A stretch of 42,292 nucleotides of DNA from Kiritimatiellia bacterium (lineage in GTDB: Bacteria > Verrucomicrobiota > Kiritimatiellia > UBA8416 > SLMC01): positions 1-42,292 of the forward strand of contig SLKS01000365.1 in the NCBI GenBank assembly GCA_007134465.1. The letters are read 5' to 3'. Below the pieces are notes generated by a model. It was not told where the DNA came from. It saw only the letters and a list, made by a program, of their open reading frames with translations, and made no database searches. Below are positions 2,556 through 16,066 of the stretch, one piece after another. A program made the position numbers and the translations under genes. The stretch's first letter is position 1, and the number at the start of each line of letters is the position of its first letter.

Positions 2556-3872
2556 CTACAGCAGCCCCAGCCAGCGGGCGACGGTGGGGCCGTGGCCGGA
2601 CATGATGCAGGCGATCGGCAGCATGACCACGCCCAGCCCGTTCATGCGGCGGGCGCCGAACAGGACGGGAATCAGGCCGATGCCCAGCCCGGTCAGCATC
2701 AGGATCAGTCCGCCGCCGCCGGTCAACGCGAAAACGAGCCCGACGACCATGGCGAGCGAACCCCAGGAAAGCCGACGAACGCCGAGCCGCTGCAGCAGAA
2801 CAATCCAAAGCCGGGCGAGCGGACCGAACAGCAGCAGGGCCGTCGCTCCGCCGATGGCGAGCGCGGCCAGCGCCATGCCGTATTCGCGCTGTGTTCCGGC
2901 GGCGACCAGGCTTTGCGTCATCCAGGCGGCCCCGCCGCGGACCAGGCCAACGCCCGGCGCGAAGAGCAGGAGCATGGCCCCGGCCATGTACATGGTCTTG
3001 GCGGCGCCTTGCGAAACGAGAAAGGCGCGGTCGTCGCGCAAACTGGTCGCATGGCCGGCCAGCAAACCGCCGACTCCGGCCGTGACAACGGGGAAGAACG
3101 CGGCGAAGCCACCGCCCAGCAGTCCTGCCCCGGCGCCGGTCAGAACCGAATGCCAGGGAACGGCGTCGGTTCGGACGCTTTGCCGGGGCATGCGAACGCG
3201 ACTGACAAGGTTCATGATCAGCCAGGGCAGCGTGAACAAACCGGCAAAGGCGGGCATGAGATTCTGAAAGGCCATGGCGGCCGGAACCGGCGAACGGTAG
3301 ATCGCGATGAAGCCGAGCCAGCCGGACAGCAGAAAGGTCAGCAGTCCGAATCCCGGCGACCGCCAGGCGCGCGCCCGCGCGCGCCAGCCCGTCGGCCGCA
3401 TGCCCATAGGTTTCGGCCATTCCGAGAGCAGCATGAACGCGACAACGCTCCATAGAATCCAATGGCCGTGCGGCCGGAAGACATGGCGCACGACCGGCAG
3501 CCAGCGCGGCGCCCAAGGCCCGATCAGAAACACAAGGGCCAGCAGCGCGCCCATGCCGCCGAGCGCGGTAAGCAGGCAGGCTTCGTAGCCGCGGCCTTGC
3601 GCCAGCAGTTTCTGGCCGGGCAGGACGGTGAAGAACGCGCTTTCGTCGGGCGCCGCCGCCAGGATGGAGGGCAGCGTGTTGAGCAGGGAATAGGCGGCAA
3701 TCATGCCGCAGACGAATGGAACGGCGAATGCGGGCGGCACAGGCAGCGCATGGCGGGCCAGCAGCGCCACGGCCAGCGCCAGCGCATTATACACATGCAG
3801 CCCGGGCACGCAGGCCAGCAGCGAACCCAGCAAGGCGCCCGCCATGGCGGCCGGCACGACGTGCGGCGTCAT
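2556..3872 (-). CDS. TctA/DUF112-type integral membrane protein
   Basis: This 438-residue protein is almost entirely hydrophobic, with about ten to twelve predicted membrane segments. Near residue 24 it has PGLHVYN, and the second half repeats a similar layout with a glycine-rich FPVVTAGVGGLLAG segment. This is the two-half, PG-in-a-hairpin plan of the TctA (PF01970) superfamily, and particularly of its stand-alone DUF112-like branch known from archaea and some bacteria, rather than the tripartite tricarboxylate transporters. No TctB or TctC partner is nearby. The ATG overlaps the stop of the upstream OB-fold gene by four bases (ATGA), so the two are translationally coupled and probably work together. 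The substrate is unknown. Confidence 0.65.
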   Translation of the reverse strand: MTPHVVPAAMAGALLGSLLACVPGLHVYNALALAVALLARHALPVPPAFAVPFVCGMIAAYSLLNTLPSILAAAPDESAFFTVLPGQKLLAQGRGYEACLLTALGGMGALLALVFLIGPWAPRWLPVVRHVFRPHGHWILWSVVAFMLLSEWPKPMGMRPTGWRARARAWRSPGFGLLTFLLSGWLGFIAIYRSPVPAAMAFQNLMPAFAGLFTLPWLIMNLVSRVRMPRQSVRTDAVPWHSVLTGAGAGLLGGGFAAFFPVVTAGVGGLLAGHATSLRDDRAFLVSQGAAKTMYMAGAMLLLFAPGVGLVRGGAAWMTQSLVAAGTQREYGMALAALAIGGATALLLFGPLARLWIVLLQRLGVRRLSWGSLAMVVGLVFALTGGGGLILMLTGLGIGLIPVLFGARRMNGLGVVMLPIACIMSGHGPTVARWLGLL

Positions 3873-13176: not shown

Positions 13177-13381
13177 GGGGACTCCTCCTTGACTGTTGAC
13201 AATACGCCCCGTTTTTCGGATAGTCCCTGAAACTGGTCGGTTTCGTCGAACGTGTGCCGTGCTCGGATTTCAGGGAAGAAACTGTCCGACACCCGCCACG
13301 CCGCTTGCCTCGACGCAAAGCCCTCGCGAAGACGGGCCACCCTATGGCAAAGAATGCGGCACCGCATTTCCGGCGATCTTT

Positions 13382-13503
13382 TTATCGGCCGGGACAACAG
13401 GAACACGGACTATAACTTCAAGGGCAAGATAGACGAAGTGATCCTGTTGCGCCGGGCACTGACCGAAGAGGAAATCGGCCGAATTTACGAAACACAGAGA
13501 TAA
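13382..13503 (+). pseudogene. LamG-like (concanavalin-type) domain relic
   Basis: The frame ending at 13503 encodes LFIGRDNRNTDYNFKGKIDE followed by VILLRRALTEEEIGRIYE. This is the conserved last strands of a LamG/jelly-roll domain (IGRD...F.GKIDEV..Y.RAL..EEI). The preceding roughly 130 bp in frame are low-quality and lack a start or signal peptide, so only the C-terminal ~40 residues survive. It sits 27 bp upstream of the ECF sigma gene. LamG proteins are abundant surface proteins in PVC-type genomes, and this is what remains of one. Confidence 0.65.
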
Positions 13504-13530: not shown

Positions 13531-14115
13531 ATGGAAGCCGCGCCGCAAAACGATCCGCCGCCCGAAGAGGATGCGCGCATAGTTGCCAACCTGAAATCCG
13601 GCCATCCCGACGGCGCCAAGGCGCTGGTTCGGCAATATGGTACGCGCCTGCTGCGGTCCGCCTTTCTATTATGCCAGAACGAGGACGACGCGCAGGATCT
13701 GGTCCAGGAAACATTGATTGTCGCCATCAAGGCTGTTGCCCGGTACGAAGGCAAATCCGCCCTGTACACGTGGCTGCACGGCATTTTGCTGAACCAAAGC
13801 CGTCATTACCGGCGCGCGAAGGCGCGCAAAAAGATGGTGTTCACCGATCGGCTGCTGGACGAGCGCATGGAAGGCCTGCAGGCGGCGGTGACCCAGAAAA
13901 TCATGCAGGAAGCCTCTGTTTTGGCCGACTGTCTGCGAAAACTCAGCCCGGCCCACCGCGAAGTCATCATTTTGCGCTTCTTCGAAAACATGAAACTGGA
14001 GGATATCGCCCGCCAATTGGGCGTGAACAGCAGCACCATCCGTTCCCGGCTCCGCTTCGCGCTGAAACGCCTGAAAAAATTTCTTCCAAATACTTTCAAC
14101 GAAATCCCCCTTTGA
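13531..14115 (+). CDS. ECF-type RNA polymerase sigma factor
   Basis: The protein has 194 residues. Sigma-2 spans about 25-95 (NEDDAQDLVQETLIVAIKAV, then TWLHGILLNQSRHYRR), and sigma-4 about 130-185 (LSPAHREVIILRFFENMKLE and then NSSTIRSRLRFALKRLKK). It lacks sigma-1 and sigma-3, as ECF factors do. The start at 13531 has GGGAG five bases upstream. It is followed after 46 bp by a gene with a canonical anti-sigma zinc finger, so the pair most likely forms a signal-responsive sigma/anti-sigma unit that redirects RNA polymerase on envelope cues. Confidence 0.9.
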   Translation: MEAAPQNDPPPEEDARIVANLKSGHPDGAKALVRQYGTRLLRSAFLLCQNEDDAQDLVQETLIVAIKAVARYEGKSALYTWLHGILLNQSRHYRRAKARKKMVFTDRLLDERMEGLQAAVTQKIMQEASVLADCLRKLSPAHREVIILRFFENMKLEDIARQLGVNSSTIRSRLRFALKRLKKFLPNTFNEIPL

Positions 14116-14161
14116 TGGCACACATAGACAGAGACCGTCCAATCCGCAAAGGGGGTGCCGC

Positions 14162-16066
14162 ATGGCTTGCAACGCGTTTCGTCAAAGCATGGAAGAATAT
14201 CTGGAAGGTTCGCTTCCCGGCGCGCAAAGAACGTCGCTGGAAGCCCATCTGCAAACCTGTTCCTCTTGTCAGCAAACTTTGGCCCAGGCGCAGAAGCTGG
14301 GCGGGTCCATCTCCGGCATGATGGGCCGGACCACGGGCATTCTGGCCCTGCGTCCCGATATCGAGGCCAACATCCTGTCCGCCGCCAACAGCGACATGCA
14401 CTTGGACCCGCACGGCAAAATGATGAAGCTGTTCGAGAAAATGTCGTTTCGGGAGCGGTTTTCGCGCATGCTGCACGGGCTGAAACAGCCGAAGGAAAGC
14501 GGCGAATACAAATGGGCGGCCTTGCAGCTTCGCCGCATGATATCGCCCATATCCGCCGTGGTCGTGCCCTCCCTGGCCCTGTTGCTCATGGTCGCGCTGG
14601 CCGGCATGGCGCCGAGGCGCCAGCAGGTGGTCAACGTGCGCATCGTCGAGGACCAGCACATTCCCGAACTCGAGGAGCCGATCGACATCCCGGAACCGGA
14701 AATCCAGCCGCCGGATCCCGAGCATATCGTGGAGCCGATGGACAATTTCATTCCGTCCACAAGCAAGACGGCGGTGGGGCCGGACGTGGATTTCAGTCCG
14801 CAGCCGGCGCAATTCGATTCGGTGGCGATCATTCGCAGCCCCGTCGTCATGCGCGGCATTTTCGGCAGTCGCAGCCCGGGCGCGCGCGGCAGCATGCTGG
14901 GCCGGTTCGGCGGCGGCGGCCATACGGAAGGGGCGGTTCTGCGCGCGCTGCGCTGGCTGAAGAAACATCAGGAGGAAGACGGAAGCTGGACCCTCATGTC
15001 CGGCGGCGGCACGGCCGAAATGAGGCATACGCGCGCGCCGGCCGGATCGCCGGTCGGCATCACAGGCCTGGGATTGCTCGCGTTCCTGGCCCATGGCGAA
15101 ACGCCAGCTTCGCCCGAATTCGGCCGGACGGTGGAAGGCGCCATGCGCTACCTGCAGGAAACAATGGATTCCGGCGGGAACTTTCCGCGAAACACCGTTG
15201 ACGGCCGCAAAAACTATTCGCAAATCATCGCCGCCTACGCCTTGTCGGAAGCCTACGGCATGACCCGCATCCCTACGCTCGGCCGCAGCGCGGAAACGGC
15301 GATACGCGCCGTCATCGGTCGGCAAAAGGCGAATGGCGGGTTCGACTACGATCGCGAAAACGCTCCCGACCGCCTTGACATTTCCGTTACCGCCTGGGCG
15401 GCTCAGGCCTTCAAGGCGGCGCAAATGGCCAACCTGAACATTCCCGAACTGGATCGGGTCATGGAAAGAACCATTGAAGCCATGAAACTGTGCTACCGGC
15501 CCCGGGGCGGATATGGCGCTTTTTCATACCGCGCTTCCGGGGGCGTTCCCGACAACCGCTGGTGGGGACTCACCGGCGCCGCCGTGCTCGGCCTGCAACT
15601 GATGGGCCAGTCGCAAATGGAGGAAACGCGCCAGGGCATGCAGTGGCTCGTCCACAATACGGATTTCAACTGGGAAAATCCGTCGCGCAACCTGAACGGC
15701 AACCCGATCTACAACTGGTACTACATCACCCAGGCCATGTTCCACGAAGGCGGCGAAACCTGGCGCAACTGGAACAAGCAGTTCTCGCATAGCCTTGTGA
15801 AAAACCAGACCGTCGTGCCCAACGCCATTGCCGACCTGAGCGGCAAAATGGTGGACATCGGATACTGGCAACCGGCCGCCGACTCCGAATGGTCCCAGAG
15901 CTTCTCCTACAACACCACGCTGTGCGCGCTCCAGCTCATGGTCTATTACCGCTACCTGCCCACGTTCCAAACGCCCGAACAGATCGCCGCCGAGGCGGCG
16001 GCCAACAACGAGCCGCCGCCCCGCGTCGTCGAAGCCCGCGATCTGGACATTGATATCCAGCTCTAA
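14162..16066 (+). CDS. Membrane anti-sigma factor fused to a terpenoid-cyclase-like toroid domain
   Basis: The protein has 634 residues. Residues 3-36 form a canonical zf-HC2 anti-sigma zinc finger (Cys3-x25-His29-x3-Cys33-x2-Cys36). A single membrane helix lies at about 131-150. A Pro/Glu-rich spacer (EEPIDIPEPEIQPPDPEH, about 171-188) resembles a TonB-type periplasmic stalk. From about 255 to 605 come repeated helical motifs of the prenyltransferase/squalene-cyclase alpha-alpha toroid: QEEDGSWT, GITGLGLLAFLAHGE, KANGGFDY, DISVTAWAAQAF and WWGLTGAAVLGLQLMG. The cyclase DxDD acid motif is absent, so catalysis is doubtful. The start at 14162 has AAAGGGGG upstream. It follows the ECF sigma gene. 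I infer a cytoplasmic anti-sigma head regulated by a periplasmic sensor toroid. Confidence 0.8.
   Translation: MACNAFRQSMEEYLEGSLPGAQRTSLEAHLQTCSSCQQTLAQAQKLGGSISGMMGRTTGILALRPDIEANILSAANSDMHLDPHGKMMKLFEKMSFRERFSRMLHGLKQPKESGEYKWAALQLRRMISPISAVVVPSLALLLMVALAGMAPRRQQVVNVRIVEDQHIPELEEPIDIPEPEIQPPDPEHIVEPMDNFIPSTSKTAVGPDVDFSPQPAQFDSVAIIRSPVVMRGIFGSRSPGARGSMLGRFGGGGHTEGAVLRALRWLKKHQEEDGSWTLMSGGGTAEMRHTRAPAGSPVGITGLGLLAFLAHGETPASPEFGRTVEGAMRYLQETMDSGGNFPRNTVDGRKNYSQIIAAYALSEAYGMTRIPTLGRSAETAIRAVIGRQKANGGFDYDRENAPDRLDISVTAWAAQAFKAAQMANLNIPELDRVMERTIEAMKLCYRPRGGYGAFSYRASGGVPDNRWWGLTGAAVLGLQLMGQSQMEETRQGMQWLVHNTDFNWENPSRNLNGNPIYNWYYITQAMFHEGGETWRNWNKQFSHSLVKNQTVVPNAIADLSGKMVDIGYWQPAADSEWSQSFSYNTTLCALQLMVYYRYLPTFQTPEQIAAEAAANNEPPPRVVEARDLDIDIQL

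Follow-up and report, generated by a model that had tools for sequence, protein, structure and literature searches.

The window (the whole 42,292-nt stretch of Kiritimatiellia DNA analyzed here) encodes a 634-residue protein that we consider to be a membrane-bound anti-sigma factor with a sensor arm that originated as a duplicate of an ExbB/ExbD-operon transducer; its sigma factor would be freed when the toroid or the stalk of this arm changes state. We put the probability of this reading at about 0.5. It is built on what was observed of the domains of the protein, the operon to which the arm is related, the pairing of fingers with sigma factors, the constraint on the stalk and the exchange of toroids. 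The earlier note, made from the sequence alone, had proposed that an ECF sigma factor is controlled by a membrane-anchored anti-sigma factor that senses through a periplasmic toroid. That part stands; what the note missed is that the sensor half is a paralog of a protein (here called protein T) from an ExbB-ExbD-ExbD operon.

The gene (14162..16066, + strand, as are all window features given below) was delineated by its ORF and by Pfam, AlphaFold2 and Foldseek. It starts with ATG, preceded by a Shine-Dalgarno-like AAAGGGGGTG (14148..14157). As the earlier note had it, an ECF sigma factor gene lies directly upstream (13531..14115, 194 aa; Sigma70_r2 51 bits and Sigma70_r4 55 bits in Pfam). It ends 46 nt before the ORF and encodes the presumed partner. 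Farther upstream lies a short ORF (13252-13503), possibly what is left of a larger gene: its match to Laminin_G_3 (31 bits) covers just the end of that domain. The protein begins with a zf-HC2 (ZAS) anti-sigma finger at residues 3-37 (14168..14272; PF13490, E 1.8e-8, 34.7 bits against a cut-off of 22.2). The cytosolic segment 85-125 (14414..14536) is common to protein T (66% identity to T of contig C111 of the same genome, G000) and is followed by a single membrane helix. Based on hydrophobicity (the highest-scoring 19-residue windows begin at residues 126-132), we place this helix at residues 127-150 (14540..14611), a small correction. The remainder consists of a Pro/Glu periplasmic stalk (residues 151-250, 14612..14911), an alpha/alpha toroid (residues 251-605, 14912..15976, again with corrected limits) and a C-terminal tail (15977..16063) ending in DLDIDIQL. 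Most T proteins end in a similar acidic/aliphatic tail.

The toroid is recognized by Pfam as SQHop_cyclase_C (residues 254-346, E 5e-9, 36.1 bits against a cut-off of 26.1). In the AlphaFold2 model of the full protein, built with a 37-sequence alignment, it forms a confident ring of a dozen helices (~251-599/605, pLDDT mostly 84-98), as expected from the earlier description of the C-terminal half as squalene-cyclase-like. Its structural matches by Foldseek are squalene-hopene cyclases, 6/6-barrel epimerases and complement C4d, and the best sequence match of the T profile to a solved structure is 1gsz (E 1.4e-16). A QW-type motif, QEEDGSW, is also shared with squalene-hopene cyclases. Unlike these and other terpenoid cyclases, the window protein has a single toroid tethered to the membrane via a stalk. 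A motif scan of the whole protein found neither DxDD nor DD, in agreement with the earlier note, and DxDD is likewise absent from the conserved columns in the alignment of 37 relatives. The lack of DxDD in the window protein rules out a terpenoid-cyclase enzyme. The stalk is disordered in the full model, and the finger domain is modeled with pLDDT 79-87 (helices 7-14, 20-32, 34-60 and 65-76). Residues 1-149 modeled alone by AlphaFold gave a poor result (pLDDT 56) with a weak Foldseek match to RslA (E 0.62). The anti-sigma assignment is therefore based on sequence profile matches and gene linkage, not on the isolated finger model.

From about residue 85 onward, the window protein is a paralog of T, which is spread across Verrucomicrobiota. 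Homologs occur in 52 of the 57 relative genomes; outside the window protein's own family, the match begins at about residue 85 and the finger is missing. Of 240 class genomes, 193 have T, as do 194 of 388 genomes sampled from the phylum. Gene clustering of 40 relative loci, with Pfam run on representatives, revealed a recurring operon in which T is the last gene: TPR (~1000 aa), TPR (~270 aa), ExbB, ExbD, ExbD and T. T was called at 38 loci; in 28, ExbB and ExbD lie 5' of it, and in two more, ExbB or ExbD was missed by the simple gene caller. The same TPR-TPR-ExbB-ExbD-ExbD-T order is found in f64, outside the class. The window's own genome has this operon with a fingerless T on contig C111, and the window copy lies away from ExbB/ExbD genes. 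The two proteins are 61% identical overall and 99% identical in the stalk. The derivation of the sensor half from a toroid protein of the ExbB/ExbD operon is well supported.

The layout of T is that of TonB and TolA: a short cytosolic part, one helix, an acidic proline-rich stalk and a globular tip, with the toroid in place of the TonB domain. The earlier description of the stalk as TonB-like is thus borne out. In nine distant members of the class the T helix carries GP[TV]GSxxxH; T proteins from outside the class have GPxxSxxxH or something close to it. The SxxxH spacing is that of the SHLS motif of TonB and TolA. This motif has been described as the motor-binding site of both proteins (PMC12204202). 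In the window's order, proline takes the place of the motif histidine in operon T and finger-bearing T alike (AxxxP in the window protein). The PVC vWA force transducers have a similar operon, with TPR, TolQ/ExbB-like and two TolR/ExbD-like genes (PMC12204202), and share with T the inner-membrane helix, the proline-rich stalk and the globular tip. Based on operon and layout, we infer that T is coupled to the motor, and T looks like a toroid-tipped counterpart of these transducers. The tip is the difference: in the window protein, Pfam gave no TonB_C or TolA C-terminal domain, no vWA tip was detected by Pfam, AlphaFold2 or Foldseek, and the AlphaFold2 tip is the toroid. Unlike TonB, TolA and the vWA transducers, the window copy also carries an anti-sigma finger and stands apart from motor genes. 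T as a stand-in for a missing TonB was ruled out: canonical TonB_C proteins and TonB-dependent receptors are present in the same genomes, including that of the window, so T is not a general TonB. The Akkermansia mucin-locus papers were also considered as functional evidence for the T operon and set aside, as nothing on ExbD or toroids was found in the texts searched.

The finger has a much narrower distribution. The earlier note had proposed a search for the same architecture and ECF neighborhood, and this search yielded five finger-bearing copies. A profile of residues 1-149 from these copies, run on 346 class genomes, matched from position 1 only in two genomes, G000 (C7, C89, C399 and C256) and G002 (C165). 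Residues C3, H29, C33 and C36 are invariant in all five, as befits the canonical finger of the earlier note. Having five homologous copies on separate contigs in two genera rules out an artefact of gene model or assembly. As judged from sequence comparison, the finger is a recent addition, made only in the window protein's own family. Every finger-bearing T gene sits 3' of an ECF sigma gene on the same strand, at a spacing of 46-72 nt in four loci and ~230 nt in C89. In a tree of 39 sigma factors, the sigmas of the five loci form one exclusive clade (support 100/99). An ECF-type autoregulatory promoter common to the five loci was sought upstream of the sigma genes and none was found. The PDB matches of the finger profile are the anti-sigma factors ChrR (E 8.8e-5), RslA, RsiW and DdvA. 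Taken together, homology and gene linkage make the putative anti-sigma role well supported. The copy in C256 (L043:2253-4113) is broken by a frame change, with a GGC/CGG-rich stretch near 3060-3120; a pseudogene, slippage or an assembly error are all possible.

The distinct parts of the protein evolve under different constraints. Among the five G000 paralogs the stalk is 93-99% identical at the protein level, with only ~80% DNA identity. Gene conversion alone is therefore insufficient to explain the stalk identity, although the lower dS leaves room for some of it. The dN/dS ratios, which are rough because high dS values underlie them, are 0.02-0.14 for the stalk, 0.18-0.41 for the toroid where measurable, and mostly 0.4-0.6 for the finger part. 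The toroids of the G000 copies differ by 33-50%. An invariant stalk with variable tips suggests that the stalks share one partner; ExbD or the TPR proteins would be the simplest candidates.

These observations suggest the following mechanism. A zf-HC2 finger placed ahead of a duplicated copy of T would have turned it into an anti-sigma factor. At rest, by homology, the finger would hold the sigma factor at the membrane. The extreme conservation of the stalk suggests that it meets the partner of the T stalk, most simply the ExbB/ExbD motor or the TPR partners, and the toroid may meet a variable periplasmic or outer-membrane ligand. Changed engagement of stalk or toroid would then free the sigma factor, probably by way of regulated cleavage within the membrane helix or close to it. 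We infer that the motor drives or gates this release. The change of histidine to proline in the window's order calls for caution about motor coupling, as docking may differ or be lost, and the location of the window copy apart from ExbB/ExbD genes also counts against the proposed mechanism. A stricter version, which we regard as possible but doubtful, is a force-gated anti-sigma factor combining the finger with an ExbB/ExbD transducer arm, in which transcription would report motor load or engagement and the toroid tips would be interchangeable.

A serious rival to motor coupling is a plain ligand sensor: the toroid would bind a lipid, glycan, peptide or other envelope molecule, proteolysis would free the sigma factor, and the stalk would be merely inherited, with no motor involved. 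We consider this a real possibility, short of probable. The histidine-to-proline change in the membrane helix is in its favor, and so is a second, simpler combination (type B) that occurs class-wide and suggests that a toroid alone can serve as a sensor. In G000:C363 (L047:10976-12862, + strand), an ECF sigma gene is directly followed by a gene for a 447-aa zf-HC2/helix/toroid protein without the long stalk. Relatives spanning finger to toroid were found in about 10 of 57 genomes, and nine loci have a sigma gene upstream (spacing -19 to +210 nt); zinc ligands are lost in some members (L162). The type B sigmas form a separate clade (99/97 in the same tree of 39 sigma factors), different from that of the finger-bearing T loci. 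This clade takes in one further row, L165, whose genome also encodes a type B toroid protein. Recruitment of toroids as anti-sigma sensors has therefore happened at least twice. In the window's genome, further zf-HC2 proteins carry a PQQ propeller or FecR, likely periplasmic domains, which also fits a plain sensor. The stalk, however, argues against this explanation, because one would not expect a passive linker to be under the tightest constraint in the protein. Moreover, with the sensor half being a paralog of T, coupling to a motor or partner is no less likely than the sensing of a small ligand.

Toroids are not inherited in step with the sigma factors. In the toroid tree, finger-bearing and fingerless copies interleave, unlike in the sigma tree, and the window toroid pairs with that of a TspO fusion in C325. 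The intact sigma clade alongside the mixed toroid tree indicates that sigma and finger stay together and toroids are exchanged. In G002, the finger-bearing T lies 3' of both the operon and MutL. A run of 1525 nt, which starts in the helix region and extends to the end with the tail included, is identical between it and operon T; the finger parts differ. This identity could stem from recent duplication or else be a product of the assembly. The interleaving and the G002 identity would both suit a reporter working by competition, in which finger-bearing T and operon T vie for one and the same partner, either the motor or something in the outer membrane, and the sigma factor is freed if that partner is missing or saturated, the toroid sensing no ligand of its own. 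We find this improbable, since the divergence of the G000 toroids exceeds what is expected if all bind one partner alike. Least credible is the view that the finger serves as a zinc site of structural or redox type, tuning an ExbB/ExbD transducer, and that the sigma gene is a mere neighbor: zf-HC2 alone is a short, weak predictor and the isolated finger model is poor, but the position of all five copies 3' of sigma genes from one exclusive clade and the profile matches to solved anti-sigma factors speak against it.

An anti-sigma factor with a motor-derived sensor arm combines features of known systems. Like the membrane-bound ZAS anti-sigma factors RslA and RsiW (ChrR being a soluble relative), it has the Hx3Cx2C motif with an upstream Cys, an N-terminal finger preceding one helix, and a gene adjoining that of an ECF sigma factor. 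Unlike in RslA and RsiW, the periplasmic half is a long Pro/Glu stalk with an alpha/alpha toroid derived from an ExbB/ExbD operon. As in FecR signaling (FecI/FecR/FecA with TonB-ExbBD), an ECF sigma factor would be held by a membrane anti-sigma factor in a setting where the Ton motor matters. Unlike in FecR, Pfam gave no FecR domain in the window protein, no TonB-dependent receptor gene is adjacent, and the transducer-like arm is within the anti-sigma factor itself. TonB-ExbBD and FecR-type signaling have so far come together only via separate proteins, whereas here the anti-sigma sensor would itself be a motor-operon arm. On this view, the cell would switch genes on according to the state of an ExbB/ExbD envelope machine. 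The analysis further uncovers a TPR-TPR-ExbB-ExbD-ExbD-toroid system that spans the phylum and seems to be the toroid equivalent of the vWA force transducers proposed recently, and the sigma pairs provide a genetic handle on what toroids recognize. The earlier note knew of no characterized protein with this architecture. The simpler sigma and zf-helix-toroid pair found class-wide qualifies that statement; in searches of open-licence papers we found no description of the window protein, the T operon or the type B pair.

Several further loci deserve mention. The TspO fusion of G000:C325 (L045:723-2678, - strand) joins a TspO/MBR domain (166 bits) to a T-like toroid in one open frame. Also in G000, an ECF sigma gene is followed by a gene for a zf-HC2 protein with a PQQ beta-propeller in C196 (L048:1932-3978, - strand) and by one for a protein with a weak zf-HC2 and a FecR domain in C279 (L051:1330-4136, + strand). 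A toroid match in G026 (C70:33010-34158) lies within an open frame of 11395 codons. G503 (L186, L187), which belongs to the phylum but not to the class, has 11 matches, with many T copies away from ExbB/ExbD genes and two in tandem. Tandem T-like genes without the motif histidine are also present at L188:4091-9030 in the complete 3.2 Mb genome G360 (family f54).
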